Shown piece after piece: positions 7,488 to 64,000 of a stretch of DNA of 64,000 nucleotides (position 1 is the first letter of the stretch; the number at the start of each line of letters is the position of its first letter). Origin of the DNA: Gluconobacter sp. Dm-62 (lineage in GTDB: Bacteria > Pseudomonadota > Alphaproteobacteria > Acetobacterales > Acetobacteraceae). Below the pieces are notes generated by a model. It was not told where the DNA came from. It did no database searches and saw only the letters and a list, made by a program, of their open reading frames with translations. The stretch lies in assembly GCF_018256155.1 (NCBI RefSeq), contig NZ_JAERLY010000001.1:186001-250000 (forward strand). Direction: 5' to 3'. The translations under genes were made by a program, and so were the position numbers.

Positions 7488-7491
7488 ACTG

Positions 7492-8979
7492 TCAGAGAGA
7501 CTTTCCGGTCGGGATGGAGGCAGCCGTCTTGGTACGCAGCCAGCCCCCTTCAAACCCTGCGCGCTCCAGCCCGGCGCGCAGATAGGGGTTCTTCTTCATC
7601 GTGTTCCACACGAGACCACTGCGCCAGTTCTCCAACATCAGCAGGATCGGACCCTGATCAATACCGAGCTGCTGCCCATCCACCCAGTAGGATTTCTGGT
7701 CGGCAAAGGACGGGTTGAAGGCGTCCAGGAACCCATACTTGTTATAGATCCGGTCTCCATAACGGGAACGCATTTCCTTGAGCGCCGGCAGAGCGATTTC
7801 CGGCGCAAAGGCAATGGACCCACCCACGGCGGTCGGCGCAATCGTGCCATCATCCAGAATGTAATCCCGCCCGGCACCACGCGCGCTATAGGCCAGATAA
7901 TGGCGCTGCTTGCCATCATAAACCTGCTGCGCATCGCCTGGACCATCACAGGCAGTGAGCCCCCAAATATTGGAGCCGTAATCCTTCCAGTCGCCCGGAT
8001 TAGCCTGTGCATAAGCCCGCTGTGCATAGGCAGCTTCGCGGCCGTTCTGGAAATAATCGACGTTATGCGCACGGTCCCAGGAATCCTGCACGCCGCGGAA
8101 ATCAATCCAGGATTCGCTGTACTGATGGCCGAACATCGGCGCAAAATTCAGCAGCTTGTGGCCCTGAAAGTCGCCCCACTGGTTTTCATAGGTTGCAGTC
8201 CACGCCTTCCAGGTCTCGGCCGGCAGCGGATGCGTCGGCGAACCAAGCGCCTGAAGATAGATGATCAGGCCCTCGTTATAGCCCTTCCAGTCGCTCGGCA
8301 GGAACGTATGCGGCGGCATCCAGCCCATGCTGAGCCAGGGACCATGCGCCTTCATCCAGGTCCAGTCGATCCGGCGGTACAGAGTGTCCGCGATATCGCG
8401 GATTTCTTTTTCCTGCGGCGTGTCATGATCGAAATAGGACTGCGAGAACAATACGCCGCCCATTAGCAGCGCCGTATCGATGCTGGACAATTCGGACCAG
8501 TCCGCAACCCGAAGGCCGGTGTTGGGATCGAGGAAATGGTAGAAGAAACCCTTATAGCCCGCAGCGCCCGTCACATGATCGTTCTGCGGCAGGCTGGCTA
8601 AAAAACGCAGTGTTGTCAGCGTTCGGTCCACGGCCTGCTGGCGCGTGATGTAGTTGCGCTCCACGCCAATGCCGTAAGCTGTCAGCCCGAAACCGACGCT
8701 GGCAATACTGGCCGCCCCATTGGGCAGTGGCGCGCGGTCCGGCACCAGACCATTCTTCGGATTGGCCGTCTCCCAGAACCAGTTGAACGTGCGCTTTTCC
8801 AAATCATCGACGAAAGCCGTATCAGCCGCTGGCAGGCTCGCAGGCTGAAGAGCCGGAGAAAGCGCTGTACTGGCCGTCGGAGCAGAATGGGCAGTGTGAA
8901 GCGTCAGACCAAGCACCCCAATCGCAAATCCTGTCTGACAGAAACGGGAAATCCGGGATTTCCACCTCTGCCCTGTCAT
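7492..8979 (-). CDS. Secreted glucoamylase-family / GH144-type glucanase
   Basis: Exported carbohydrate-active protein of the glycoamylase-like family (PF10091), which includes the GH144 endo-beta-1,2-glucanases. The mature part opens with a helical-barrel start, TFNWFWETANPKNGLVPDR, then SIASVGFGLTAYGIGVERNY, GFFYHFLD, ELSSIDTALLMGG and an FNEG-like YNEG, all typical of this family. The ATG at 8979 gives 495 residues with a standard signal peptide (RWKSRISR, a hydrophobic core, then a TAHSA cleavage site). Upstream in-frame starts at 9033, 9039 (ATG) and 9072 (GTG) would put about 20-30 extra residues ahead of it, so I consider them less likely, but none has a clear ribosome binding site. 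The substrate is not settled by sequence: beta-1,2-glucan, cyclic glucan or a periplasmic glucan are the candidates. Confidence 0.82.
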   Translation of the reverse strand: MTGQRWKSRISRFCQTGFAIGVLGLTLHTAHSAPTASTALSPALQPASLPAADTAFVDDLEKRTFNWFWETANPKNGLVPDRAPLPNGAASIASVGFGLTAYGIGVERNYITRQQAVDRTLTTLRFLASLPQNDHVTGAAGYKGFFYHFLDPNTGLRVADWSELSSIDTALLMGGVLFSQSYFDHDTPQEKEIRDIADTLYRRIDWTWMKAHGPWLSMGWMPPHTFLPSDWKGYNEGLIIYLQALGSPTHPLPAETWKAWTATYENQWGDFQGHKLLNFAPMFGHQYSESWIDFRGVQDSWDRAHNVDYFQNGREAAYAQRAYAQANPGDWKDYGSNIWGLTACDGPGDAQQVYDGKQRHYLAYSARGAGRDYILDDGTIAPTAVGGSIAFAPEIALPALKEMRSRYGDRIYNKYGFLDAFNPSFADQKSYWVDGQQLGIDQGPILLMLENWRSGLVWNTMKKNPYLRAGLERAGFEGGWLRTKTAASIPTGKSL

Positions 8980-9143
8980 GGCTGCTGGAGAGAAAAACGG
9001 GACTTCGGAAGTCCGCTGCGTCCGGTGCTGCATGCTCATGCGGGGAGGATAAGCAGAAGGACAGACCGCCACGCACCCACCGTTACATCAACTTTCCGTG
9101 ACCGCCGAAAAGTGAAGGAACTCCGCCCTTGTCTTGAAGAACT

Positions 9144-10016
9144 TTATGACAGGATTGGGGCGAATGTAACATCATCAATATCTGAAATACCCGTCTCCGA
9201 AACCCTGACGCCACCATACGACTCTGTCTCGCACAGCATCCGGGCGGCAATTTCCGCCGTCACGAAAGTCGCGATCACCTCGGGCCGCTTGTCCCGCACC
9301 CCGAAATCCCCGATCGGACAGACGAGACGGTCGATCTGCTCCTGTGGAATGTCGATCTGGCGAAACGCGCTCTCGAATCGTTTGCGCTTCGTGCGGGACC
9401 CGATCATTCCAACATAGCGCAGGTCACCGCGCTCCAGCGCTGCTCCCGTGATGAGCGCATCCAGCGTATGGCTCTGGGTCAGCACCAGCACGCCCGATCC
9501 GGCAGGTGCCCCATTCAGAAGACCTTCCCAGCGTTCCGTGACATGCGCCTCCACCCCGGACGGCACGATGCCGAACTCTTCTTCGCGCGCATCCACCCAG
9601 ACCACCTGCAGCGGCAGAAGCGCCAGCGAGCGCGCCAACGCTCTCCCGACATGCCCCGCACCAAACAGCAGCAGTTGCGGCAGCTTCTCCCGTTCAGCAA
9701 GGATTTCCGCCTCAAGAGCCCCGGCATCTTCCACACACTCGATACGAACCGTCACGGCCCCGCCGCAGCACTGGTTGATGGCCGGACCCAGCGGAATATG
9801 GCGCTCGACCGGCTCTCCGCCCGACGCCAGAAGCGCCCGCCCCTCCGCCATGCAGTCCCATTCCAGCCGACCGCCGCCAATCGTGCCGGTCTGTTCGGTC
9901 CGGGTCAGGAGCATGAACGCGCCTTCTTCCCGAGGTGTGGAGCCCCGGGCGCGGATGACGGTCAGGCGCACCATGGCCTGCCCTTCCCGCCGCCAGCGCA
10001 GAACATCCGCCAGCAT
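9144..10016 (-). CDS. xdhC: Xanthine dehydrogenase accessory protein XdhC
   Basis: Chaperone that binds molybdenum cofactor, promotes its sulfuration and hands it to XdhB. The 290 residues show the XdhC N-terminal signature (GSTPREEGAFM near residue 25, TIGGGRLEW near 46), the CCGGAV segment near 84, and a Rossmann-like half starting LLLFGAGHVGRAL (about 115). The ATG at 10016 lies 2 bp after the xdhB stop, so it is the third gene of the xdhABC operon. No downstream gene follows closely on this strand. Confidence 0.94.
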   Translation of the reverse strand: MLADVLRWRREGQAMVRLTVIRARGSTPREEGAFMLLTRTEQTGTIGGGRLEWDCMAEGRALLASGGEPVERHIPLGPAINQCCGGAVTVRIECVEDAGALEAEILAEREKLPQLLLFGAGHVGRALARSLALLPLQVVWVDAREEEFGIVPSGVEAHVTERWEGLLNGAPAGSGVLVLTQSHTLDALITGAALERGDLRYVGMIGSRTKRKRFESAFRQIDIPQEQIDRLVCPIGDFGVRDKRPEVIATFVTAEIAARMLCETESYGGVRVSETGISDIDDVTFAPILS

Positions 10017-10018
10017 GG

Positions 10019-12334
10019 TCAGCCAGCCCGATCCTGCACGGCCATGAGGGTTTTCAGAACCCGCTCGGGCGTGGCCGGTGCGTCAAGCTTCGGGCAGGTC
10101 CGGTAATCGTCCAAACTGGCGATCGCGTCCGAAATGGCCTGAAGGACCGCAACCCCATGCACGAAAGGCGGCTCTCCGACGGCCTTGGATCGGAAAATCG
10201 TCTCCTCCCGGTTCGGCGCGTTTTCCAGCAGTTCCACATTGAAAATCCGCGGCCGGTCGGAACAGGCCGGGATCTTGTAGGTGCTGGGCGCATGCGTCCG
10301 CAGACGTCCGGCTCCGTCCCAGACCAGTTCCTCCGTTGTCAGCCAGCCCGCGCCCTGCACGAACCCGCCTTCGATCTGCCCGACATCAATGTCCGGATTC
10401 AGGGACTGTCCGGCATCATGCAGGATATCCACGCGGTCGATGCTATGCTCGCCCGTCAGCAGATCGACCGACACTTCCGCACAAGCCGCGCCATAAGCGA
10501 AATAGAAGAAGGGTCGCCCGCGCCCGGTCTCGGGATTCCAAGAAATCTTCGGCGTTTTGTAAAACCCGTTCGAGGACAGCGAGACCCGCGCGAAATAGGC
10601 CTGCCAGGCGAGTTGCTGGAAGGTCATGACCTCCGCGCCGACATGCACGCCATCGGGCCGGAAATGGATGTCTTCGGCCGCCACGCCCCACTTCTCAGCG
10701 GCAAAGACGATCATCCTATTCTTGATCTTGCGCACCGCATCCAGCACCGCCATGCCGTTCAAATCCGCCCCCGAAGACGCCGCCGTGGCGGACGTGTTCG
10801 GCACCTTCCCGGTCGTCGTCGCCGTGATGCGGACGCGATCCGCCGTCAGGCCGAATTCGCGCAGGACGATCTGCACCATCTTGGTGTGCAGCCCCTGCCC
10901 CATTTCCGTCCCGCCGTGGTTCACCTGAACCGAGCCGTCCGTATAGACATGCACCAGCGCGCCGGCCTGATTGTAATGCGTGGCGGTAAAGGAAATGCCG
11001 AACTTCACCGGCGTCAGCGCAATGCCGCGACGGATGATGCGGCTGGTGCGGTTGAACGCCCGGATTTCGGCCTTGCGCGCCTGATAATCACAGCGCGCGA
11101 CCAGCTTTGTCAGGATCTCGGCCGTAATCGAGTCCTCGACTGTCATATGATACGGCGTAAGATTACGCGTCCCGGTTCCATAAACATTCCGCAGCCGGAC
11201 CGCCACAGGATCAAGTCCGGTCGCAAACGCGACTTCCTCGATCACCCGTTCCGCCGCGACAATGCCCTGCGGCCCGCCAAAACCGCGATAGGCGGTGTTG
11301 GACTGGGTATTGGTCCGCAAAGGCTCGGATTTCAGACGCACATCGGGATAGAAATAGGCATTGTCGGCGTGAAACAGCGCCCGGTCCGTCACCGGCCCGG
11401 ACAGATCCGCCGCCCAGCCACACCGCGCGGCCAGAACCATATCCACGGCCAGAATATCGCCCTCATCGGTGAAGCCGACGTCATAGTCGATCAGAAAATC
11501 ATGCCGCTTTCCGGTTGCCATCATGTCGTCATCGCGGTCCAGACGCGCCTTGACCGCCTGCCCCGTCTGGTTAGCGGCAATAGCGGCCAGACAAGCCCAG
11601 GCATTGGCCTGTGTCTCCTTGCCACCGAACGCGCCTCCCATGCGCCGCACTTCCGTCGTGACCAGATGATGAGGACGCCCCAACACGGCCGCGACCAGAT
11701 GCTGCGTCTCGGACGGATGCTGCGTGGACGACCAGACGCGCATTTCCCCGGCTTCTCCCGGCTGGGCAAGCGCCGCCTGCCCTTCCAGATAGAAATGCTC
11801 CTGCCCGCCAATCTCGATCTGCCCCGACAGGCGGCGCGGCGCGGCTTTCAGGCCACGTTCCACATCCCCGCGCTGCATGGTCAGGGAGCGCCAGACCATC
11901 GGGCTGCCATTCTCGCGCGCCTGCGCGATGTTCAGGATCGCGGGCTTCTCCTCATATTCAATCTTCGCCAGCCGCACGGCCTGACGCGCCGCCTGACGCG
12001 ATGTCGCCACCACGGCAAACATCGTCTGCCCCCAGAAATGGACATGATCCGTCGCCAGAAGCGGCTCGTCTTCCCGATGAACCGGGCTGATCTGGTTCTC
12101 GCCCGGCACATCTGCCGCCGTTAGCACGCACACGACGCCCGGCGCGGCGCGCACGGCGTCCAGATCCATCGACACGATCCGCGCATGGGCCTTCGTGCTC
12201 AGCCCCGGCACGAGATGGAGCGTCCCGCGTGGCTCAGGCAGATCATCAATATACGCCGCCTGCCCCGTCACATGCAGCAATGCGCTTTCATGCTTCATGC
12301 TGGTCGAAGCAGCACCCGGCGCGAGATCAGACAT
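10019..12334 (-). CDS. xdhB: Xanthine dehydrogenase, molybdopterin-binding subunit XdhB
   Basis: Large subunit that hydroxylates hypoxanthine and xanthine to urate in the cytoplasm. Starting at the ATG at 12334 (GGGAGGG about 8 bases upstream) it has 771 residues. Cofactor and active-site motifs are intact: GGQEHFYLEGQ with the Moco Gln near residue 180, RRMGGAFGGKE near 235, AYRGFGGPQG with the substrate-binding Arg near 350, and the catalytic Glu in VGEPPFVHG near 725. A longer reading to 12391 has a basic, non-conserved N-terminus and is rejected. The start lies inside the end of xdhA (8-bp overlap). It has the separate-subunit XdhA/XdhB architecture, unlike the single-chain eukaryotic enzyme. 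Confidence 0.96.
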   Translation of the reverse strand: MSDLAPGAASTSMKHESALLHVTGQAAYIDDLPEPRGTLHLVPGLSTKAHARIVSMDLDAVRAAPGVVCVLTAADVPGENQISPVHREDEPLLATDHVHFWGQTMFAVVATSRQAARQAVRLAKIEYEEKPAILNIAQARENGSPMVWRSLTMQRGDVERGLKAAPRRLSGQIEIGGQEHFYLEGQAALAQPGEAGEMRVWSSTQHPSETQHLVAAVLGRPHHLVTTEVRRMGGAFGGKETQANAWACLAAIAANQTGQAVKARLDRDDDMMATGKRHDFLIDYDVGFTDEGDILAVDMVLAARCGWAADLSGPVTDRALFHADNAYFYPDVRLKSEPLRTNTQSNTAYRGFGGPQGIVAAERVIEEVAFATGLDPVAVRLRNVYGTGTRNLTPYHMTVEDSITAEILTKLVARCDYQARKAEIRAFNRTSRIIRRGIALTPVKFGISFTATHYNQAGALVHVYTDGSVQVNHGGTEMGQGLHTKMVQIVLREFGLTADRVRITATTTGKVPNTSATAASSGADLNGMAVLDAVRKIKNRMIVFAAEKWGVAAEDIHFRPDGVHVGAEVMTFQQLAWQAYFARVSLSSNGFYKTPKISWNPETGRGRPFFYFAYGAACAEVSVDLLTGEHSIDRVDILHDAGQSLNPDIDVGQIEGGFVQGAGWLTTEELVWDGAGRLRTHAPSTYKIPACSDRPRIFNVELLENAPNREETIFRSKAVGEPPFVHGVAVLQAISDAIASLDDYRTCPKLDAPATPERVLKTLMAVQDRAG

Positions 12335-13787
12335 GCGCCAGCCCTCCCGTCCGGGCGAGACGCGCCTGCGCACCGCCCGTCGTTTCTTCAAAAAACCGCG
12401 TCAGCAGATTGGCGGCCACGGTCTGCCGGTACCAAGCACTCGCCCGCATATCGGTCAGCGGGGCGAAATCTTCCAGGATCGCCGCCCGCGCAACTTCCAG
12501 CGCGTCCTGATCCCAGACGCGCCCGAGCAACGCCGCTTCCGCACCCGATGCCCGCTTCGGCGTGGCTGCCATACCGCCATAGGCCAGCCGAACCGCAGTG
12601 ATCCGCCCCTGACCGTCCGTCTCGATCATGAAAGCGCCCAGAACGGCGGAAATGTCCTGATCAAAGCGCTTGGAAATCTTGTAGGCGCGGAACTGCCCAC
12701 CCCGCGAGGGAGCAGGAATGCTCAGGGCCTCCACGAACTCGCCGGGCTGCCGGTCCTGCTTTCCGTAAGCGATGAAATAGTCTTCCAGCGCGATGGACCG
12801 ACGCTCCGCCCCGCGCCGCAGATGCAGCGTCGCACTGGCCGCAATGAACATCGGCGGCCCGTCCCCGATCGGGGAGCCATTCGCGATATTCCCACACACC
12901 GTCGCACTGTTCCGTACCTGCGTGGAGCCCAGACGACGGATCATTTCCCCTGCATCCGGCAGCAGTTCCGCAATGGCCATGCGCGCGTCCTGATACGTCA
13001 CCGCAGCGCCAATCCGCAGCCCCTCGGGCGTTCTGGTCAGACCGCGCAGTTCCGGAACCCGCCCGATCGGCACGACATGCTTCAGGCGACGCATCCCCTT
13101 CGTCACCCACAGCCCCACATCCGTGGCCCCTGCAACAATCGTCGCCTCCGGATCGGCCATCAGGATCTCCGCCAGATCATCCGCAGACGCCGGAATGCTG
13201 AGCGTGCCCTCCGGCCCCTCAAGCCGCACGCTCTCGCCGTCCTGCAACGCCGTCAGACGGTCGGAAATCGCCTCTACCTGCGCATCAAAACGGTCCGGCC
13301 CCGCCGCCAGCGCCTGTTTCATGGCACGCACGATCGGAGCGTATCCGGTGCAGCGGCACAAATTGCCGGCCAGTGCGTCATCAATGGCCTGATCGTCCGC
13401 CTTGGCCCCTTCAGTCTTTCGATAAACCGCCATCGACATGACGAAACCCGGCGTGCAGAACCCGCACTGCGAGCCATGCTGCTCGACCATGGCCGTCTGC
13501 ACGGGATGCGGCGCATCGGCCGTTCCCAAGTCTTCGATCGTAAAGACCTGTGCACCGTCCAGCATGCTGACGAACTGAATGCAGGCATTGACCGCCCGCC
13601 AGTTCAACCGCCCGTCCTCAAGCCGGACGACCAGCACCGTGCACGCCCCGCAATCGCCTTCATTGCAGCCTTCCTTGGTGCCGGTCCGGCCACGGTCACG
13701 CAGCCAGTCCAGCAGGGTCAGCGTCGGGGACAGATCCCTGAGCGTGCAGAGGTCTTCCCCCAGATAAAAACGGATATTCTGGCGCAT
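12327..13787 (-). CDS. xdhA: Xanthine dehydrogenase, FeS/FAD subunit XdhA
   Basis: Small subunit that passes electrons from the Mo site through two [2Fe-2S] clusters to FAD and NAD. The 486 residues begin at the ATG at 13787 (MRQNIRFYLG). Cluster ligands are visible: Cys41, Cys46, Cys49 and Cys69 for the plant-type ferredoxin cluster; Cys108, Cys111, Cys144 and Cys146 (QCGFC and LCRC) for the helical one. The FAD domain follows from about residue 190, with VAGATDVGLW and a GGNIANGSP-like CGNIANGSPIGD near 310. It is first of xdhABC. The 67 bp to the ABC gene upstream on the same strand leaves co-transcription possible. Confidence 0.96.
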   Translation of the reverse strand: MRQNIRFYLGEDLCTLRDLSPTLTLLDWLRDRGRTGTKEGCNEGDCGACTVLVVRLEDGRLNWRAVNACIQFVSMLDGAQVFTIEDLGTADAPHPVQTAMVEQHGSQCGFCTPGFVMSMAVYRKTEGAKADDQAIDDALAGNLCRCTGYAPIVRAMKQALAAGPDRFDAQVEAISDRLTALQDGESVRLEGPEGTLSIPASADDLAEILMADPEATIVAGATDVGLWVTKGMRRLKHVVPIGRVPELRGLTRTPEGLRIGAAVTYQDARMAIAELLPDAGEMIRRLGSTQVRNSATVCGNIANGSPIGDGPPMFIAASATLHLRRGAERRSIALEDYFIAYGKQDRQPGEFVEALSIPAPSRGGQFRAYKISKRFDQDISAVLGAFMIETDGQGRITAVRLAYGGMAATPKRASGAEAALLGRVWDQDALEVARAAILEDFAPLTDMRASAWYRQTVAANLLTRFFEETTGGAQARLARTGGLAHV

Positions 13788-13890
13788 CGGGCGGGATCTC
13801 AGGCAAAAATACGAGGGGGCGTGCAGACTTCTGTGCCCCACGGCAGGCGTTGCCGTCTATATCCAAGATCGGAACAAACCGTTGCCTTTT

Positions 13891-14823
13891 TTAGAGCAGC
13901 GGATAATGGCAGGCGACCGTGCGCCCTTCCCCGACCCTGTTGAGTTCCGGCCGCTCCTGCGAGCATCGCGGCTGGGCCAGCGGACAGCGCGTATGAAACG
14001 CACAGCCCTGCGGCGGATTGATCGGGCTTGGCACATCGCCTTTGAGCGGCGGCGGCAAGGGCCGGTCCGGACGGGGCACCGCATTCAATAGTGCCCGCGT
14101 ATAAGGATGGGCCGGGGCTTGCAGAACCGCCAGCACGTCCCCTTCCTCCACGATGCGTCCCAGATACATGACGGCAATCCGGTCCGCCATCTGCCGCACG
14201 ACCGCCAGGTCATGGGAGATGAACACGCACGCCACGCCCAGCGAATTGCGCAGATCCCGCAACAGATTCACGATCTGCGCCTGCACGGACACATCGAGCG
14301 CCGATGTCGGCTCATCCGCGACCAGAAGGTCCGGCCCCAGCATCAACGCGCGGGCAATGTTCAGACGCTGCCGCTGCCCACCCGAAAACTCATGCGGATA
14401 CCGGGACAGAACGGACGACGACAGGCCAACCTGCTCCAGCAGCACCCCGATCCGCTCCACAATGCCGGCCCGTCCATGGATCCGCATTGGCTCCGCCAGC
14501 GTGTCACCAATGGTCCGGCGCGGATTGAACGTCGAAGACGAGTCCTGAAATACCATCTGCATCCGGGGCCGCCAGCGCCTTAACGCCCGATCCGACAGTC
14601 CGGAAATCCGCTCCCCTTCAAAGAACACCTCTCCCGAACTCGGCGCCCCCAGCCCGATCAGCGTCCGCCCCAACGTGGACTTGCCACAACCGGACTCCCC
14701 GACCAGCGCAAGCGCCTCCCCGCGATGCACGGCCAGCGACACATCGCTCACGGCGCGCAGGGTCTCCCCGTGTGACAGACGGTAGTATTTGCTGAGGTTT
14801 TTCGCTTCAAGAAGAATGGTCAT
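13891..14823 (-). CDS. Oligopeptide/dipeptide-type ABC transporter ATPase (DppF/OppF-like)
   Basis: Second ATPase of a peptide/nickel-type (Dpp/Opp) importer. The 310 residues have Walker A GESGCGKST (about 41-49), Q-loop VFQDSSSTFNPR, signature SGGQRQR (about 148), Walker [13 protein letters not shown], and the family-specific C-terminal extension with conserved cysteines (CAFHTRCPLAQPRC) that marks OppD/OppF proteins. The start overlaps the stop of the upstream ATPase gene by 4 bp (ATGA). Substrate cannot be read from the ATPase; the neighbouring xdh genes raise the possibility of a purine-related or other small substrate, but that is only context. Confidence 0.9.
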   Translation of the reverse strand: MTILLEAKNLSKYYRLSHGETLRAVSDVSLAVHRGEALALVGESGCGKSTLGRTLIGLGAPSSGEVFFEGERISGLSDRALRRWRPRMQMVFQDSSSTFNPRRTIGDTLAEPMRIHGRAGIVERIGVLLEQVGLSSSVLSRYPHEFSGGQRQRLNIARALMLGPDLLVADEPTSALDVSVQAQIVNLLRDLRNSLGVACVFISHDLAVVRQMADRIAVMYLGRIVEEGDVLAVLQAPAHPYTRALLNAVPRPDRPLPPPLKGDVPSPINPPQGCAFHTRCPLAQPRCSQERPELNRVGEGRTVACHYPLL

Positions 14824-55989: not shown

Positions 55990-56760
55990 TTATTGGGCCA
56001 TCCAGCCGCCGTCCACCATCAGATTGTGCCCGGCGATATAAGTTGCCTCGTCACTTGCAAGGAACAGGGCCGCATGAGCGACATCCTTTGGCGTTCCCAA
56101 TCGGGGCATGGCGGTCCGCTGGCGTGAATATTCCAGTTTCGCGGGATCAATAGCCGAGCCCGTTTTACCGGTCAGGATCTTGCCTGGTGCCACGGCATTG
56201 CAGACAATGAAATCCTTCGCATAGTCCGTCGCAACCTGTTTGGTCATATAGACAAGCCCCGCCTTGCTGACGCCATAGGCAAAATCGTCCGGCGCCCCAA
56301 TCATGCCGTGTTGGGACGTTATGTTGACAATGCGCCCGCGGGTCTCGTTCACGATGTCCTGCCTCAGCATCTGCCGCACGGCCTCCCGCAGGCATAGATA
56401 GGCGCCTGTCAGATTGACGTTCATCACCCGGTCCCAGTCCGCCATTTCCGTCTCTGCCAGAGGCAGACCACCCCGGACCATGGCGTTATTGATCAGGATA
56501 TCGACACGCCCGAAGGTCTCGACGGTTTGTCGAAACAGCGCTTTGACCTCATCCTCGCTGGAAATATCGGTTTTGATGAACACAGCCCGCGATGTGATCT
56601 GGCCAAGCGCCTGAATAACTGGTTCGCCACCCTCCACGACATCCTCGGTGATGTCCGCCGCGACGACGGCCGCACCCTCACGCGCGAAAAGAAGTGCAAT
56701 GGCCCTTCCGATCCCGGAGGACGCACCTGTAACGATTACTGTCTTGTCTAACAGACGCAT
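55990..56760 (-). CDS. Short-chain dehydrogenase/reductase, glucose-dehydrogenase-like
   Basis: Classical SDR oxidoreductase, 256 residues from the ATG at 56760. It has the NAD(P)-binding TGASSGIGRAIA (about residues 12-23), NNAMVRGG where NNAG is usual (about 92), catalytic Ser in NITSQHG (about 151), YGVSKAG with Tyr/Lys (about 165) and a C-terminus (ATYIAGHNLMVDGGW) common in glucose/gluconate-type SDRs. An Asp after the second strand (AADITED) suggests NAD preference. Last gene of the receptor-transporter operon, 10 bp after the ATPase. Substrate unknown; context suggests it acts on the imported compound. Confidence 0.88.
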   Translation of the reverse strand: MRLLDKTVIVTGASSGIGRAIALLFAREGAAVVAADITEDVVEGGEPVIQALGQITSRAVFIKTDISSEDEVKALFRQTVETFGRVDILINNAMVRGGLPLAETEMADWDRVMNVNLTGAYLCLREAVRQMLRQDIVNETRGRIVNITSQHGMIGAPDDFAYGVSKAGLVYMTKQVATDYAKDFIVCNAVAPGKILTGKTGSAIDPAKLEYSRQRTAMPRLGTPKDVAHAALFLASDEATYIAGHNLMVDGGWMAQ

Positions 56761-56770
56761 GACGTAGTCC

Positions 56771-57550
56771 TCAGTGTCGGATGATCTGTTGAAGAAAAGC
56801 GCGGGTACGGTCATGCTGTGGATGCAGAAAGAACGCGTCAGGCGCATTGCGCTCGACGATCTGTCCGGCATCCATGAAGATGACTTCATCCGCGACGCTG
56901 CGGGCAAATCCCATTTCATGCGTTACGCAGACCATCGTCATGCCCTCGTCCGCCAGTTCGACCATGACATCCAGAACTTCCTTGATCATTTCCGGATCGA
57001 GTGCAGAAGTTGGTTCGTCAAACAGCATGACTTTGGGCTGCATGCACAGTGCTCTCGCAATCGCAACGCGCTGCTGCTGACCGCCTGAAATCGCGGATGG
57101 AAGCTTATCGGCATGCTGAGAGATTTTTACGCGTTCCAGATAATGCCGGGCAAGCGCCTCGGCCTCGGCTTTTGATTTTCCACGAACCTTCATGGGCGCA
57201 ATCATGAGGTTCTGCAGAATGGTCAGATGCGGGAAAAGGTTGAAATGCTGGAATACCATGCCGACCTCACGGCGGATCAGGTCCAGATTCCGGGATTTCC
57301 CGTTGATTGGCACCCCTTCCACCAGCAGTTCACCACTATCAAACGTCTCCAGACCGTTCATACAGCGGATCAGGGTGGATTTACCTGACCCCGACGGGCC
57401 GCAGATGACCACCCGGCTTCCCTGATCGATCGTAAGGTTGATATTTCGCAGGGCATGATAGCTGCCGTAATGCTTTTCCAGAGACCGGACGTCAATTGCG
57501 ACCGAAACGTTCGGGACGGGCGGCATAGCGGACGACCTTTCAGAAGTCAT
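56771..57550 (-). CDS. Polar amino-acid-type ABC transporter ATPase (GlnQ/HisP-like)
   Basis: ATPase of 259 residues with the PAAT pattern: [17 protein letters not shown], Walker [10 protein letters not shown] (about 51-59), [17 protein letters not shown] (about 99), signature [15 protein letters not shown] (about 154), Walker [16 protein letters not shown] and the switch [14 protein letters not shown], which identify the amino-acid (glutamine/histidine/opine) branch. The start overlaps the epimerase gene by 11 bp. It works with the two permeases and binding protein encoded further upstream in the same operon. Confidence 0.93.
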
Positions 57551-58511
57551 TGGGATAGTGCTCCAGCCATGTAAGATAATCGTTCAGCGTGTCGGTGAAG
57601 GACGGGATGAAGTCCGTATCCTGACGAAGGCGCGCGATGGAAAGCGGTGCTCTGTCCTGCTTCATGGGAAAATGGATGTTGGCGTCTTCACTCGGACCAG
57701 CCAACGAAATGCCGGGTGCGTGCAGGGCTTCCGCCATTGTAGTTCCCCATGTTGCCACAGCGCTGACATGACCATTGCCGACATTGTAAATTGCATGGCG
57801 CAAGCGGGTACTCAGCGCGATGGCCGCAAGCGCCGCCCCGGCGTCACGACTGTAAAGCCAGTCTCCCCACATCTCCCTCCCCAGAACGGCTTTTTTGCCA
57901 GTCTTCAGGATGCTCAGAACCTGTGCCTGCGGGCTGAGAAGCGGGCGGACCCCGGTATCATGCTCCCACGGCCCGTAGACCGGTCCAATCCGCGCGAGGC
58001 GAACATCCATCCCATAAATATCCCCCAGACGGAGAGCCATTTTTTCCGCTGCCAGTTTGGTAATACCGTAAAGCGACTGCGGCGCCAGAAGATGGGTCTC
58101 TTTTATGGGGCCTTCCGCCGGCTCAACGGGGCCATAGATTGCCACGCTGCTGGCGATCACGACGCGCCGGACATTATGTGCGTTCTGGAGGACGCAGAGC
58201 AGGTTTGCGACCCCGGAAACATTGATCTCGGTAATGCGGGCCGGACACGCCTTTTCGGTAGCAAGATCCGGTGTCATGGCAGCAAGATGGACGACGATTT
58301 CAGGCGCGCAGGCTTCTACTGCGGCACCCACATCGGAAGCCGAGCAGACATTGCCCTCAATAAACTTCACGTCCTGAAACGGAGCCCGACTGCCGAACCG
58401 GGGCGCAACAGGTGTCGTTGCAAAAAGCACGGGAACATGACCCAGCTTCAGCAATGCTTCCGCGAGTGCCAGCCCAACAAATCCCGTGCCACCTGTTATG
58501 AGGATCTTCAC
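57540..58511 (-). CDS. NAD-dependent epimerase/dehydratase-family protein
   Basis: Extended SDR of 323 residues, like UDP-sugar 4-epimerases and related sugar or sugar-acid dehydrogenases. It starts [20 protein letters not shown] with the GxxGxxG nucleotide site, then VHLAAMTPD (about 77), SSVAIYG with catalytic Ser (about 122) and YGITKLAAE with Tyr/Lys (about 147). The GTG at 58511 overlaps the permease stop codon (GTGA); a longer frame to 58574 lies inside the permease gene. An enzyme gene between permease and ATPase of an amino-acid-type ABC system is unusual and indicates that the transported compound is probably sugar-like or carries a sugar or hydroxy-acid part. Confidence 0.87.
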
Positions 58512-59188
58512 GTTCTGGAACGCCCCGAAAGCTCTCTCTGCTCCAGACGCGAAACCCAGTGGGAAAAGGGCCACAACAGAACAAAGAAAATGACCGCAAC
58601 TGCTGTTAGTGGTGTCGGGTTATAAGTCTGCTCCTGTGCGATCTGGGCAGATCGGAGAAGTTCAGGGATTGCAACAAGCCCCGCAATCGATGTTGTCTTT
58701 ACAAGTTCGAGAGAATTACTAGCCAGCGGCGCAATCACCTTACGCAGAACCTGCGGCAGAATCAGGTAGATCATGGCTTTGGCGCGATGAAAGCCAAGAG
58801 ACTGAGCCGCCTCCATCTGCCCTTTGGGAATGGAGTCCAGCCCAGCGCGAAAAATCTCGCTGAAATATCCGGTGTTGTTAAGAACAATCGCCGCCACCAC
58901 GGCTGCGAAGCTGCCCAGCGTGATCCCCAAAAAGGGGAGACTGTAATAGATCAGGATCAGCATCATGAGCACAGGAAAAGCCCGCATCAGATCGATCAGC
59001 ACCAAAAGGACCCGACGCAATATCCGACCTGAGAAGCTGTAAAGAAGTGCCAGCGCAAGACCACACAGTAACGACAAGGGCAACGCTGCTGCCGAAAGCA
59101 GCAGAGTGAACTTCAACCCCTGCCAGAGCAGAGCCTGAACGGTCATCAGGGACGGAATATTGAAGAAATTATCCAGAAACAGATGCAT
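58508..59188 (-). CDS. Polar amino-acid-type ABC permease (second)
   Basis: Inner-membrane permease, 226 residues, five or six helices. Key features are the RAFPVLMMLILIYYSLPFLGI segment (about 69-89, the HisMQ-type RTLPVLV/LFLIYYGLP pattern) and the coupling loop AAQSLGFHRAKAMIYLILPQVLRKVIAP (about 127). It lies 12 bp after the first permease and its stop overlaps the epimerase start. Confidence 0.9.
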   Translation of the reverse strand: MHLFLDNFFNIPSLMTVQALLWQGLKFTLLLSAAALPLSLLCGLALALLYSFSGRILRRVLLVLIDLMRAFPVLMMLILIYYSLPFLGITLGSFAAVVAAIVLNNTGYFSEIFRAGLDSIPKGQMEAAQSLGFHRAKAMIYLILPQVLRKVIAPLASNSLELVKTTSIAGLVAIPELLRSAQIAQEQTYNPTPLTAVAVIFFVLLWPFSHWVSRLEQRELSGRSRT

Positions 59189-59200
59189 TTTCAGGCCATC

Positions 59201-59866
59201 CTAATGCGAGAAATGCCGTTCGAGATAACGACTGAACATGACAAGCGGGATAAAGAACAAAAGATAGAACCCTGCTGCAAGCGTAAGCGGTGACGAATTG
59301 GCCTTTATGGACATAACGCTCTGCGCGCTCCCGAGTGTTTCCTGCAACGATACTGCGATGCCAAACGCAGTTCCCTTTGTGATTGCAATCGTACGGTTCG
59401 TAACCAGAGGAAGAGCAAGGCGAATGGCCTGCGGAAGAATGAAAAGAAAAAGGGCCTGCGGGCGTCGGAAGCCCAGTGCAGACGCAGCTTCCCACTGCCC
59501 CGCAGACACAGCTGCAATGGCAGCCCAAAAAATTTCTGCCGAAAAGGCCGCCAGAACTGCTGACAGCGCAATGACTGTAGACAGAAATGCCGAAAAGCGG
59601 ATGCCAGCATAAGGCAGTCCGAAGTATATGAAGATTAACACTACAAGCTGAGGGAGCGTCCGGAAAATTTCGACGTAAAACCGGATCGCTGCACCCAGAA
59701 GCCGATTGCGCAGACACCGCAGCAAAGCCAGCCCCAAACCGCCACTGACACCCATCGCAATAATGAGCACCGCTGCCCGCACGGTTACCCAGAACCCTGC
59801 CAGTACATCCGGAAAGGCCGCCTTCAGGACCTGCAGATTGAAATAGTTTTCAAAAATCTGGTGCAT
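59201..59866 (-). CDS. Polar amino-acid-type ABC permease (first)
   Basis: Inner-membrane permease of 221 residues with the same family pattern: EIFRTLPQLVVLIFIYFGLPYAGI (about 65-88) and coupling loop AASALGFRRPQALFLFILPQAIRLALP (about 126). The pair with the second permease is the heterodimeric HisQ/HisM arrangement. It begins 56 bp after the binding-protein gene. Confidence 0.9.
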   Translation of the reverse strand: MHQIFENYFNLQVLKAAFPDVLAGFWVTVRAAVLIIAMGVSGGLGLALLRCLRNRLLGAAIRFYVEIFRTLPQLVVLIFIYFGLPYAGIRFSAFLSTVIALSAVLAAFSAEIFWAAIAAVSAGQWEAASALGFRRPQALFLFILPQAIRLALPLVTNRTIAITKGTAFGIAVSLQETLGSAQSVMSIKANSSPLTLAAGFYLLFFIPLVMFSRYLERHFSH

Positions 59867-59922
59867 GGACCATCCAGGAAAAGAATATTCCGAAAATGAC
59901 AGAGAAAGTCATGAAGCCCCGG

Positions 59923-60774
59923 TCAGTGACATTGAACAGAATGGGGCGCAGGGTCGTAACCGGAAAAACCCGGTGGCCCGAAACCCGGATAAATGGTCAT
60001 CAGCGGATTGTCCTTCGAAGGAGGCGCGCCGTACCATTTTTTATAAAGGCGCCCCAGAGCGCCTTCCTGTTTCAGGCACTCGATTGCCATTTCTGTCCGG
60101 TTCCGCAACTCTACATCGTCCTTGCGAAACGCATATCCAAAATTACGTCCGTCGAAATCCTTGTATCCAACTTCGATAAGAGGATTTCGACTGGCCGCAT
60201 AAACGGTTGTTGGAATTTCATTCAGTGCTGTAAAGGCGCGGCCCGTCATGACAGCCAGAACCGAGTCAGGAAAAGTCTCATATCGCTGGACCGAAAACCC
60301 GTAGCGATCATGGTTCACTGTTGCCCAGGTATCGGAGAGTGTTCCACGGTTCACAGCGAGAACCTTGCCTCTCAGATCCGCCAGTCCTGAGATTTTCTGC
60401 CCTTTAAGAACAATAAATCCGTTGCCCGTGGCAAAAATCGGCTCACTGAACAGCAATCTTTCGCTACGATCCTGAGTAATGTTCAGTGGATTGACCATGA
60501 TGTCGATCCGTGACGAAAACAACGCCGGAAACAATCCAGAGAAATTAATATCTTCGACATCGACCGACCGGTATCCCATCTTCCGTGCAACCATGTTGAT
60601 GAGATCAATCCCGAAGCCTTCCGGCCCATTCGGACCACGGATGACCCAAGGCGCCACGCCGAAATCAGAACCCACCATCAGCGTGTCCTGAGCAGGGGCG
60701 GCCTCACACGTTACTCCTGAAAAGAGCATGCATGCCATGGGCAGAAAAGCGCAGAGAGACCTCCGCAAACGCAT
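59923..60774 (-). CDS. Periplasmic amino-acid-type solute-binding protein (SBP family 3)
   Basis: Exported receptor for the ABC system, 283 residues from the ATG at 60774, with a signal peptide (LRRSLCAFLPMACMLFSG, cleavage near CEA; the Cys sits where a lipoprotein site might be, but the lipobox is poor). The SBP_bac_3 signatures are GPEGFGIDLINMVARKMGY (about 45), FPALFSSRIDIMVNPLNIT (about 82), RSERLLFSEPIF and LADLRGKVLAVNRGT (about 130). The tail is Pro/Gly-rich. The SBP_bac_3 motif usually reading G(V/I)D(I/V)D is PLNI here, and the Arg/Asp pair for an alpha-amino acid is not obvious, so the ligand may not be an ordinary amino acid. Confidence 0.88.
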   Translation of the reverse strand: MRLRRSLCAFLPMACMLFSGVTCEAAPAQDTLMVGSDFGVAPWVIRGPNGPEGFGIDLINMVARKMGYRSVDVEDINFSGLFPALFSSRIDIMVNPLNITQDRSERLLFSEPIFATGNGFIVLKGQKISGLADLRGKVLAVNRGTLSDTWATVNHDRYGFSVQRYETFPDSVLAVMTGRAFTALNEIPTTVYAASRNPLIEVGYKDFDGRNFGYAFRKDDVELRNRTEMAIECLKQEGALGRLYKKWYGAPPSKDNPLMTIYPGFGPPGFSGYDPAPHSVQCH

Positions 60775-60877
60775 GGCATCAGACCCTTTCAAAAACCACA
60801 TCCAGAATTCGGACCCCAGAATGTTCTGAAAACGGCACAACCCATTTCCAGAACACGCTTTGATTAAGTTACGCTTT

Positions 60878-63760
60878 TTAGAAATGAGCTCCTGCCTGAA
60901 GCCAGACATATCGGCCAATCATTTCTTCAGCGTACAAACCGCTGGCAGTGTTGTAAACGCCGGTCGGAACATATGGAGGCGCCTTGTTGAACATATTGTT
61001 CACGCCACCGTCCAGGTGCCATTTGCCGAAATTGTACCCGACAGAGATGTCATGCGACGTGATAGGGCTCACATGGGAGACAGAGTTGGTCTTGGCGGTC
61101 AGATCAGTCGAACCATTGTTGAGCTTCATACCACCTGTGAAGTTCATCATGTATGTCAGGCTGAAGTTCCCGTGATACCAGTTGGCGGAGAAGTAGTCCT
61201 TGACGCGCGGGAAGCCATAACCAGCGGAATAGATCATCCGGCCGTTATAGTTCAGCCATGCACCACCCGGGCTGTTCTGCTGCAGATAGCTCACCGTTTC
61301 CTGCATGTTATTGGCGATCACAACGGTATCATTCATCGATATGTGAATCGGATAACTCACATCAAAGTCGATACCACCAGTCTTTACCCCGCCCAGATTC
61401 TGGTAAACTGAGGAAACCTGCGTAATCTGGCCGGAAGAACTCCGCGGGGCAATATTGCTGCAATAAGAGTTGTTCAGACCCTCATAACACTGATCGAGAA
61501 TATACTGCGGGTTTACGGTATTGATCGTATTCTTGATTGTGTAGTGCCAGTATTCAACAGAGACATTCAGACCGGGAGCAAAGCGCGGCGTGATGACTGT
61601 GCCAAAAGTATAGGTACGCCCCTGTTCCGGCCGAAGGGCCTTGTTGCCGCCCGACAGGACCGGGAGCTGCCCCGACCAGGCTGAGGTGAACTTGTTGGCG
61701 TTCACGCCCGCCTTTGCGCAATTCGCAACCACCGCCGCCTTGAGACCACCATAGGTGCTCGCCTGTGAGCAGGGATCAATCGCAGAAGTCAGCGCCAGCG
61801 TGTTGCCGCCATAGAGTTCATAGATACTCGGCTGGCGATAGGACGTTCCCAGCGTCGCACGGAAGCGAATATCGCGTGTAGGCGCCCAGTTGATGCTGGT
61901 CTTCCAGTTCTGCGTATCGCCAAAAGTATTGTACGAGGACCAGCGCCCCTGTGCACCTACTGTCAGGTCTTTGGCGAAAGGAGCATTCTGAAGCAGCGGC
62001 ACACGAAGTTCGCCATAGACTTCATTCGCGTTGAAGCCACCGCCCGTCGCAGCAGAGCTTTCACCCGCAATCTGTCCGGCAGCAATCAGCGGATCGGGAC
62101 TGAAACTTCCCTGCTCGCTGCGATGTTCCATGCCAAACGCAAGGCCAATATTACCACCGTTCTGGTAAGGCAGTTTTACGAGCTTGTTGTTGTTGATCCG
62201 AAGATTAAAGTCTCTCAACTGATAGTTGGCATGACTATGCTGTGTATAGCTGATGTATTTGGCCGCCTGACCGGACCACGGCATGAAGGGGTTGGCAAGC
62301 TGGCAGCCGGCAGCGCTGTTACAAACGGATGGGTTATAGACCACGGCGCTGGACGAACTGGATGGATTGAGCTGCTCTACGCCCAGTTCCTGAAGAAGAT
62401 GCGCGTAATTGATGTCGTTGGTGGTCTGGAAGGATGACTGGCTTGACCCATAGGCCATGGACGCGTCGTAATTCCAGTTTCCAATGATCTGTCCGCGTGC
62501 ACCGGAGGTAACCTGATAGGTATCCACGGCTGTGCTCAGCTCACGTGGCCCAAGCTCCGGAAAGCGTTTATAAAGGCCGACATCCTTGCCCCAGACATTA
62601 TACGGATTTCCTGCCGGAAGGGTCAGAGAGCTCAGCAGCTCGGACTGCGGATTACCACTGCCCGGTACGCCCAGTCCGGTAATGCCCGATGTTGTACGGT
62701 GGGCATAATTGACCTGACTATACAGCGTCATATGACGGTTGATGTCGTAGTGGAAATCACCACTCAGATTGGCAGACTGCGTATAGCCCACCATTGTCTG
62801 ATCCATGCCGTAATTATAATTATCCGACGAATTGTACGGGGAGAACGTACCGTTATTATTGCTGATCAGGTTCATCCCGCTTGGATCGACGCGCGTGCGG
62901 GATGTAATAGCTGATCCGAAGATGGCCGCAGCCCCCGGAGCAGGGTTGTTGCTGGAAGGATTGCGGGACCAGGCGCGGTCGCGCTGATACGTCCCGCCCT
63001 GCGTCATATACTGGCCGAAGATCGAAATATTACCGCGGTCGTGGTCGAAGTTGAACCCTTTATGCGCAGAAATACGACCCGTGCGGTCATCACCAACATC
63101 CGTGATACCACCGCGCATCGAAATCGCCGCATCGTTCACATCATGTTTGAGCTTGATGTTGACGACGCCCGATACAGCATCCGCACCATACAGTTCCGAA
63201 CCACCGTCCTTGAGAATTTCCACTGAGGCAATCTGATCCGTAGCGATGGCATTCAGATCAACGCAGGCTGTGGAGGTGCCCATTGTCTGGACCTGACGCT
63301 TGCCGTCCACCAGGACCAGTACGCGGGACTGCCCAAGATTTCGCAAATCAACGCAGGACAGGCCGTTTCCGGCAATGGACTTTGCGTTTGAACTTCCGGT
63401 GGATCCGATGGATGGCAGCCGGAGGAGATAATCCCCGATTGTCGTCGCAGATGTCTTCTGGATATCAGTGGCCTTGATGATCTGGACCGGGTTGGGATCC
63501 GCATTGCGACCCGCACCGAGAAAAGAGCCGGTGACGACAATATTCTCGGGCGCCGCGGCCTTCTGCTTCTGTGCCGCCTGCACAACCTGCGTCTTTTTCT
63601 TCGCTGGGGCCGCAGGCGGTGTCACACCTTTCGTGGCGATGACCTTCTTCTTTTTGAGGGCATCCACGGTTGTGGTCGCAGCAATAGAGATATCAGGATG
63701 CAGTTCGACAGCTGTCGAGCAGATGGCCACACCCAGGAAGAGATACTTCATTCTACTCAC
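60878..63760 (-). CDS. TonB-dependent receptor, non-siderophore type
   Basis: Outer-membrane receptor, 960 residues, beginning with GTG at 63760 (AAGGAG 8 bases upstream; an ATG three codons later has no site). After the signal peptide comes a Lys/Ala-rich linker, a TonB-box ENIVVTGSF (about 73), and a plug with DYLLRLPSIG, LRNLGQSRVLVLVDGKRQV, ILKDGGSELYGADAVSGVVNIKLKHDV. Cys pairs in the plug (LSCVDLR and STACVDLN) are typical of the large receptors for plant- or nutrient-derived compounds in Caulobacter and Sphingomonas rather than of siderophore receptors. The C-terminus ends YVWLQAGAHF. It heads the operon with the ABC transporter and two oxidoreductases, 103 bp before the binding protein gene. 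No Fur box is visible in the 240 bp upstream. Confidence 0.92.
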   Translation of the reverse strand: MSRMKYLFLGVAICSTAVELHPDISIAATTTVDALKKKKVIATKGVTPPAAPAKKKTQVVQAAQKQKAAAPENIVVTGSFLGAGRNADPNPVQIIKATDIQKTSATTIGDYLLRLPSIGSTGSSNAKSIAGNGLSCVDLRNLGQSRVLVLVDGKRQVQTMGTSTACVDLNAIATDQIASVEILKDGGSELYGADAVSGVVNIKLKHDVNDAAISMRGGITDVGDDRTGRISAHKGFNFDHDRGNISIFGQYMTQGGTYQRDRAWSRNPSSNNPAPGAAAIFGSAITSRTRVDPSGMNLISNNNGTFSPYNSSDNYNYGMDQTMVGYTQSANLSGDFHYDINRHMTLYSQVNYAHRTTSGITGLGVPGSGNPQSELLSSLTLPAGNPYNVWGKDVGLYKRFPELGPRELSTAVDTYQVTSGARGQIIGNWNYDASMAYGSSQSSFQTTNDINYAHLLQELGVEQLNPSSSSSAVVYNPSVCNSAAGCQLANPFMPWSGQAAKYISYTQHSHANYQLRDFNLRINNNKLVKLPYQNGGNIGLAFGMEHRSEQGSFSPDPLIAAGQIAGESSAATGGGFNANEVYGELRVPLLQNAPFAKDLTVGAQGRWSSYNTFGDTQNWKTSINWAPTRDIRFRATLGTSYRQPSIYELYGGNTLALTSAIDPCSQASTYGGLKAAVVANCAKAGVNANKFTSAWSGQLPVLSGGNKALRPEQGRTYTFGTVITPRFAPGLNVSVEYWHYTIKNTINTVNPQYILDQCYEGLNNSYCSNIAPRSSSGQITQVSSVYQNLGGVKTGGIDFDVSYPIHISMNDTVVIANNMQETVSYLQQNSPGGAWLNYNGRMIYSAGYGFPRVKDYFSANWYHGNFSLTYMMNFTGGMKLNNGSTDLTAKTNSVSHVSPITSHDISVGYNFGKWHLDGGVNNMFNKAPPYVPTGVYNTASGLYAEEMIGRYVWLQAGAHF

Positions 63761-64000
63761 GTTTCGATCTCCTTAAGCGCGCGCTCAAAAACGGAACGGC
63801 AGATTGTCGTCAGGGCGGGTATCGGTTCCAGATCGCCTGAAGAGCACCCTTTCGTCTCCATGAAGCATAACGGACAAGCACTTCAGACTTCTGAACACGA
63901 AAAATCACTCCTCAGAACTACACCATATTGATTCCGGAACGTTATTCGTTTTCCTTGTTTAAGAATATAGTTTATCTATCTTTTCGGGAGAGATTCACCG
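63761..64000. other. Upstream region of the TonB receptor operon
   Basis: No gene supported; AT-rich toward the right edge (TTTAAGAATATAG, TTTATCTATC), as expected of a promoter region. I could not assign -35/-10 boxes and saw no Fur or Pho site. Confidence 0.4.

Follow-up and report, generated by a model that had tools for sequence, protein, structure and literature searches.

A TonB receptor and amino-acid-type ABC importer operon of Gluconobacter, probably serving a catabolic module for a cyclic ureide or imide

What is imported by an operon that joins a TonB-dependent receptor to an amino-acid-type ATP-binding cassette (ABC) importer and places two oxidoreductase genes among the importer genes? 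Such an operon occupies the minus strand of the 64-kb stretch of Gluconobacter sp. Dm-62 analyzed here (the window; C11:186001-250000 of a 3.46-Mb genome, hereafter G000) and encodes, in order, a TonB receptor, a periplasmic substrate-binding protein (SBP), two permeases, an 'epimerase', an ATPase and a short-chain dehydrogenase/reductase (SDR; Table 1). The junctions from receptor to SDR measure 103, 56, 12, −4, −11 and 10 bp, and re-reading of the open reading frame coordinates recovered all seven leftward genes and the junction lengths of the original prediction, an earlier interpretation made from the letters of the window.

Our answer is that the operon probably supplies uptake and two NAD(P)-dependent oxidoreductases to an accessory module that breaks down a hydantoin-like cyclic ureide or imide. 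The parts are familiar, and the pathway that they apparently form belongs to the ABC-linked catabolic modules, in this case equipped with a TonB receptor. This reading draws on the observed gene content, conservation and linkage of the operon, and its chemical steps are extrapolated from the chemistry of the enzyme families.

Table 1. Genes of the operon and the adjoining intergenic region, in window coordinates.
Feature	Coordinates	Strand	Basis and remarks
TonB-dependent receptor	60878..63760	-	plug PF07715 and barrel PF00593
SBP, family 3	59923..60774	-	PF00497 (SBP_bac_3); ATG at 60774
Amino-acid-type ABC permease 1	59201..59866	-	PF00528 (BPD_transp_1); TIGR01726 above cut-off
Amino-acid-type ABC permease 2	58508..59188	-	PF00528 (BPD_transp_1); TIGR01726 above cut-off
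Extended SDR, 'NAD-dependent epimerase/dehydratase'	57540..58511	-	PF01370; 323 amino acids
ABC ATPase, GlnQ-like	56771..57550	-	GlnQ model 324.2 bits, cut-off 379
Classical SDR oxidoreductase	55990..56760	-	PF13561; PRK07231 subfamily 'glucose 1-dehydrogenase' 224.8 bits, cut-off 215
Divergent intergenic region, receptor gene to M20 gene	63761..64000	.	M20 start codon outside window

Conservation of the operon and its partners

Gluconobacter sphaericus NBRC 12467 (L031) has all seven genes in the same order, as do two genomes from a different genus of the family (G300 and G388; loci L033 and L034), so the set is not a chance assembly and, as originally proposed, forms one unit. In G. sphaericus the epimerase-family gene is 95% identical and the 11 kb around the operon share 94% DNA identity; in G300 and G388, identity is 85–87% for the receptor, 80–82% for the permeases, 81–82% for the ATPase, 80–81% for the SDR, 71–76% for the SBP and 60% for the epimerase family. 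Divergently from the receptor gene runs a gene for an M20 carbamoyl-amidohydrolase, with its start codon 52 bases past the window end (C11:250052, equivalent to L032:10053), and after it, likewise outside the window, a PuuE-like (allantoinase-like) gene (L032:11328-12254). Both genes are divergent from the receptor gene in G. sphaericus as well, and both are 96% identical there; their counterparts in G300 and G388 (48% identical for M20 and 68% for PuuE-like) lie within ~3 kb of either operon end.

Among 62 loci examined, counted by tblastn at thresholds that we set, an SBP orthologue was present in 17. With it came the SDR and both permeases in every case (17/17), the epimerase-family gene in 12 and the receptor in 4. 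A PuuE-like gene lies in the same 20–25 kb in 12 of the 17, the same 12 that have the epimerase, and is accompanied there by AllA (eight loci) or M20 (four loci); these two never occur together in the 17. When genes were instead called and clustered automatically, an SDR was assigned in 40 loci, with a PuuE-family gene no more than nine genes away in 17 of these; in 13 loci none was called, although tblastn finds the SDR in ten of them.

By tblastn, SBP, epimerase family and SDR also occur together on plasmids of Rhizobium, Neorhizobium, Bosea, Paroceanicella, Thioclava and a Comamonadaceae bacterium. The five of these that are annotated (Neorhizobium, Bosea, Paroceanicella, Thioclava and Comamonadaceae) encode a ureidoglycolate lyase (AllA), PuuE/polysaccharide deacetylase, SBP, permease, permease, NAD(P)-dependent oxidoreductase and SDR, with the ATPase placed before the SDR in Paroceanicella and Thioclava; a GntR regulator gene precedes the lyase gene in four of the five and follows the SDR on the Comamonadaceae plasmid. 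On two Rhizobiaceae plasmids (L064 and L053) the amino-acid-type module adjoins peptide-type importer genes resembling those of pRL12 (see below), and a second PuuE-like gene is also carried, giving two versions of the module in one place.

The simplest alternative, an ordinary amino-acid or metal-chelate importer in which two oxidoreductase genes were caught by chance, is the least probable of those considered, and we give it very little weight. As a rule, a TonB receptor combined with an ABC set takes up iron chelates or vitamins, and the operon does lie in a variable region between conserved flanks, both of which speak for this alternative. Against it stand the SDR in all 17 and the epimerase in 12 of the SBP loci, found in both alpha- and betaproteobacteria and whether or not a receptor is present, as well as the amino-acid fold of the SBP and the 13 of 17 loci that have no such receptor. 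The tie first proposed between the oxidoreductases and the importer is upheld, as the two travel with it in several gene orders.

The oxidoreductase pair is also found with other importers. On Klebsiella oxytoca pIron_OXY, epimerase family and SDR adjoin a single-permease ABC importer, a dihydropyrimidinase, two Asp/Glu racemases and a fumarylacetoacetate-hydrolase-family gene; in Methylobacterium nodulans they adjoin another ABC set with a dihydropyrimidinase; and on Rhizobium johnstonii pRL12 and Paracoccus aminophilus pAMI1 they adjoin a peptide-type ABC set, a dihydropyrimidinase and PuuE, in sets that further hold a thiamine-diphosphate enzyme and a dihydroorotase-family gene (importer classes in all four being read from gene sizes). 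The original prediction had named epimerase and SDR genes beside unrelated transporters as a finding that would speak against it; to the letter this is what the four loci show, yet a dihydropyrimidinase is present in all four, which points to the chemical class of the substrate and not to hitch-hiking. The pair thus seems, from its gene neighborhoods, to follow a class of substrate, with exchangeable importers. The main text of the pAMI1 description mentions genes of amino-acid transport and metabolism and does not contain the words 'hydantoin', 'allantoin' or 'dihydropyrimidinase' (PMC3925955). Judged by titles and opening lines of abstracts, none of the papers listed in the literature searches appears to describe the gene set or pathway.

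Across a family-wide sample of 397 genomes, the SDR was found in 37 and a match to the linked type of PuuE (E ≤ 1e-92) in 118. Such a match occurs in 30 of the 37 SDR-positive and 88 of the 360 other genomes (odds ratio 13, Fisher 1.4e-11) and, by genus, in 13 of 15 versus 26 of 87 (Fisher 4.8e-5), P values that are too small because the genomes are related. At E ≤ 1e-70 the only SDR among the 14 Gluconobacter of this sample is that of the window's own genome (G. sphaericus lies outside the sample), and a class-wide sample had the SDR in 13 of 289 genomes.

The relatedness of the genomes weighs against our reading, and so do several further points. The 62 loci were chosen for hits to the SBP, epimerase or SDR, for PuuE copies, or as flanks of the operon itself, and the 118 PuuE matches were not each checked for the motif described below. 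Seven of the 37 SDR-positive genomes have no PuuE-like match at the threshold, among them G000, whose copy is too divergent to register. Five of the 17 SBP loci (L082, L093, L106, L108 and L112) have neither the epimerase nor a linked PuuE-like gene; three of their genomes (G461, G168 and G271) carry an AllA/PuuE-like pair elsewhere, and the other two (G275 and G121), outside that search, have a PuuE-like match in the family-wide search (E ≤ 1e-92). Neither SBP nor PuuE-like gene was found, at the thresholds used, in 26 of the 49 SDR-positive loci, and only four of these 26 have a dihydropyrimidinase, so that the SDR alone is no marker of the module. Two SBP-less loci (L104 and L109) carry both AllA and M20, which limits the either-or pattern to the 17 SBP loci, and AllA (PF04115) was not found in the genomes G000, G300 or G388. 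On pRL12 and pAMI1 the epimerases are only remotely related (29–30% identity). Finally, the activities assigned to the PuuE-like, AllA-like and M20 proteins are predicted from superfamily membership.

The linked hydrolases and the allantoin alternative

In the PuuE model search (TIGR03212; 20 genomes or records, cut-off 424.6), seven Gluconobacter genomes, our own included, and G. sphaericus (G682) each had one canonical PuuE (519–544 bits). Of these eight, only our own genome (345 bits) and G. sphaericus (341 bits) had a second strong hit, in both cases adjoining the operon; the second hit of G366 reached just 58 bits. G300 and G388 likewise combine a canonical PuuE (539 and 544 bits) with a second copy near the operon (366 and 352 bits). 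All 12 linked PuuE-like proteins carry the motif GWYCRY, as do nine further proteins from SBP-less loci (L087, L101, L104, L105, L109 and L116-L119), and the three canonical copies checked (G000, G300 and G388) have GWYQGR; GWYTGR stands in its place in L061, L111 and the solved PuuE 3cl6. Judged by sequence, the linked GWYCRY copy is a group separate from canonical allantoinase. The M20 protein lies far below the cut-off of the AllC allantoate deiminase model (TIGR03176; 199.7 versus 597.75 bits), over that of the general hydantoinase/carbamoylase model (TIGR01879; 244.9 versus 204) and just under that of the PRK12891 'Zn-dependent hydrolase' subfamily (458.5 versus 461).

These scores bear on the main rival ligand, allantoin. 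Under that alternative the operon would belong to a second, high-affinity route for scavenging a purine ureide, in which the PuuE-like enzyme opens allantoin and M20 acts as allantoate amidohydrolase. The best solved matches agree with it, being PuuE allantoinase 3cl6 for the PuuE-like protein (1e-87) and allantoate amidohydrolase 1z2l for M20 (4.1e-42), as do the AllA-like partner in other loci and the canonical PuuE of the genome, which lies beside genes that resemble, by eye, enzymes leading from urate to allantoin; with no AllA in the genome, allantoate would have to be handled by a different enzyme, for which M20 is a candidate. We nevertheless regard this route as unlikely, since a canonical PuuE above the cut-off is already present in all eight Gluconobacter genomes searched, the linked copy stays below it (345 versus 424.6 bits) with a different motif in the conserved stretch, and allantoin breakdown is not known to need an epimerase or SDR. 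Compared with the bacterial allantoin pathway (PuuE or AllB, AllC, AllA), the module shares a PuuE-like ring opener and an M20 amidohydrolase or AllA-like lyase, and differs in its sub-cut-off PuuE-like and M20 proteins, the GWYCRY motif, the additional extended SDR and SDR, and the separate canonical PuuE. The latter (L113:8278-9195, on C33; 540 bits) belongs to a purine cluster (L113, C33:26000-45900; 6728-14067) that holds PuuE and, by eye, an FAD urate hydroxylase, UraD, HIU hydrolase, a permease and guanine deaminase.

A second ring-opening chemistry, degradation of hydantoin-5-propionate as in ergothioneine breakdown, was suggested by a single hit: the linked hydantoinase of G300 exceeds the cut-off of the ErtD hydantoin-5-propionate amidohydrolase (728.7 versus 600; the G388 copy was unscored). 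The Gluconobacter locus did not repeat this result, its nearest amidohydrolase scoring over the dihydroorotase model (632.8 versus 482) and far below ErtD, with just 25% identity to the G300 protein. No ergothionase-type gene was recognized by eye near the loci, which is a weak test, and the pathway has no known role for an epimerase or SDR. We set this reading aside as very improbable.

As a separate observation, a protein encoded beside the PuuE-like gene in the related genus (L033:15795-17132 and L034:3150-4463) matches the model of MslH, the C-terminal Trp epimerase of a lasso peptide, below its cut-off (351.7 versus 700 for the L033 copy).

The importer, its oxidoreductases and the ligand

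The SBP exceeds the PF00497 cut-off (90.3 versus 26.4 bits), and both permeases exceed that of TIGR01726 (HEQRo-type; 80.7 and 78.4 versus 42.2), which places the importer in the amino-acid type (PAAT). SBP, permeases and ATPase all fall below the equivalog cut-offs of named amino-acid systems, such as GlnH/GlnP/GlnQ. In 17 aligned SBP orthologues, PLNIT and NE(I/V)PT stand where AncQR has GMTIT and VTDN, the second change including a two-residue gap in the alignment, and the Arg following the NPLNIT motif is kept in all 17. We take the changed positions to be those of the amino-acid-binding pocket; a plain amino acid thus appears less likely as the ligand. With GlnHPQ and HisJQMP the operon has in common a PF00497 SBP, two HEQRo-type permeases and a GlnQ-like ATPase; it differs in the two altered SBP motifs, the two oxidoreductase genes inside it, the attached TonB receptor and the sub-cut-off GlnH/GlnP/GlnQ scores.

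The original prediction had favored a hydroxy-, sugar- or opine-like ligand over an amino acid. Its negative half gains from the SBP motif changes; its positive half is unsupported, and PuuE-like, AllA-like and M20 genes are kept with the unit instead. An importer for an opine, sugar acid or amino sugar, with the epimerase and SDR processing the ligand, is accordingly improbable in our estimate, if less so than the hydantoin-5-propionate pathway. Octopine- and deoxyfructosyl-amino-acid-binding proteins do match the SBP (60.6 and 56.5 bits), and epimerase and SDR chemistry suits hydroxyl-bearing carbons; the closest solved relatives, however, are glutamine and arginine/glutamine binders (115 to 85 bits), and the partners kept are hydrolases of cyclic amides and carbamoyl groups. 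No opine or sugar-catabolic gene kept with the unit was recognized in the loci examined, and the opine reading was rejected for want of linked opine genes.

The name 'epimerase' goes back to a superfamily assignment (PF01370) that gives no finer identity. The YxxxK motif is present as YGITK in the window protein, and a script recovered the motif in 18 of 19 relatives, the exception being L059 (residues 121-180 scanned). Where the UDP-glucose-epimerase match 7ys8 has ANVYGP, the window protein has IGPVYGP, and the Asn of NVYGP, presumably part of the nucleotide-diphosphate site, is found in none of the 19 epimerase-family proteins tabulated. With a GalE score of 70.3 bits against a cut-off of 262.3 and that Asn absent, a nucleotide-sugar epimerase of the GalE type was rejected. 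Because of the motif replacement, the protein is probably a small-molecule dehydrogenase/oxidoreductase or epimerase and not a nucleotide-sugar enzyme.

Receptor, genomic setting and proposed pathway

The receptor (PF07715, 61.9 bits; PF00593, 94.9 bits) is 960 amino acids long with the GTG start or 957 with an ATG start at 63751. It is 98% identical in G. sphaericus (L031), and among the 397 family genomes an orthologue at 86% was found, besides G000, in G300 and G388 only; some match (E ≤ 1e-150) occurs in 70 of the 397, the others listed being 36–58% identical. Because of this narrow distribution and its absence from 13 of 17 SBP loci, the receptor looks like a late, local addition from a receptor family rich in paralogues within this bacterial family. 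Its 85–87% identity between genera lies above a background of four purine-cluster proteins (canonical PuuE 76–77%, UraD-like 58–59%, HIU-hydrolase-like 57–58% and HpyO-like 68%, the last in G388 only; three further queries gave no hit in the stretches), which fits transfer between the genera and is no proof of it. Vitamin B12 and siderophore systems likewise serve both membranes from a single locus; here the importer is of the amino-acid type and accompanied by catabolic enzymes, instead of the metal or vitamin type.

Within the operon, the GTG start of the epimerase-family gene overlaps the permease stop (GTGA). A promoter scan did no better than shuffles (6 found versus a mean of 5.2), and a terminator scan was weak (14 found versus a mean of 8.9, s.d. 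3.4).

The variable region that contains the operon is bounded by an SBF-family transporter gene (C11 ~241.8 kb) on one side and by sequence at C11 ~290.7 kb on the other. Two matching flanks lie ~12 kb apart in G684, and in G689 and G339 the left flank alone is present in the stretch fetched. In G. sphaericus the SBF-family gene downstream of the SDR is matched by a short piece only (L031:11047-11214), at the block edge. Near the operon, a 2-hydroxyacid dehydrogenase and dihydroorotase-family genes were not counted in the module, being only 25–30% alike between the two genera.

The variable region also carries two Asp/Glu/hydantoin racemase genes (PF01177) and a carbon-nitrogen hydrolase (PF00795), ~15–17 kb beyond the receptor gene, as well as additional ABC importers and another FAD enzyme. 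The racemase/carbamoylase block (C11:254-275 kb) is contiguous in G353 (80%) and G686 (85–88%; taken as G. sphaericus), and G353 has it without the SDR and without a receptor orthologue; it was therefore not counted as part of the module. In L121 (C11:258000-275000; 5220-8741) the racemase pair adjoins the carbon-nitrogen hydrolase, an enolase-superfamily gene and a second amino-acid-type ABC importer, and one of the two racemases exceeds the cut-off for cysteate racemase CuyB (242.8 versus 190). An FAD-dependent-looking protein at L121:14014-15489 is by eye like L113:6728-8281 of the purine cluster, possibly a second urate-type hydroxylase; it had no NCBIfam match at 1e-25. Compared with hyu hydantoin systems, the locus shares an importer, a cyclic-amide hydrolase and a carbamoyl hydrolase, with racemases in the same variable region; it differs in having an ABC importer and TonB receptor in place of the secondary permease of hyu, in the extended SDR/SDR pair and in a racemase block that is operon-free in G353.

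For a hydantoin-like ureide or imide, the pathway might run as follows. The receptor, energized by TonB, would bring the ligand across the outer membrane, and SBP, permeases and ATPase would carry it across the inner membrane. The second PuuE-like enzyme would then open the ring to an N-carbamoyl (ureido) acid, from which the carbamoyl or urea part would be removed by M20 in Gluconobacter and the related genus or, in other loci, by AllA. In the least certain step, the extended and classical SDRs may act by oxidation, reduction or inversion on a carbon that bears a hydroxyl group, in the ligand or in the acid set free. More tentatively, we propose that proteobacteria break down a cyclic ureide or imide with a hydroxyl group by a pathway not yet described, made up of a new GWYCRY hydrolase subfamily and both SDRs, with interchangeable importers, to which a TonB receptor was gained in acetic acid bacteria for scavenging at very low concentration.

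If the main reading holds, several bacteria derived from soil, plants and water would have, under the label 'amino acid ABC transporter', a scavenger of ureides or imides, and GWYCRY PuuE-like proteins should not be named allantoinase. One oxidoreductase pair would have been combined with different importers, and a single testable locus would lead toward a natural cyclic ureide or imide that is worth TonB import to bacteria.

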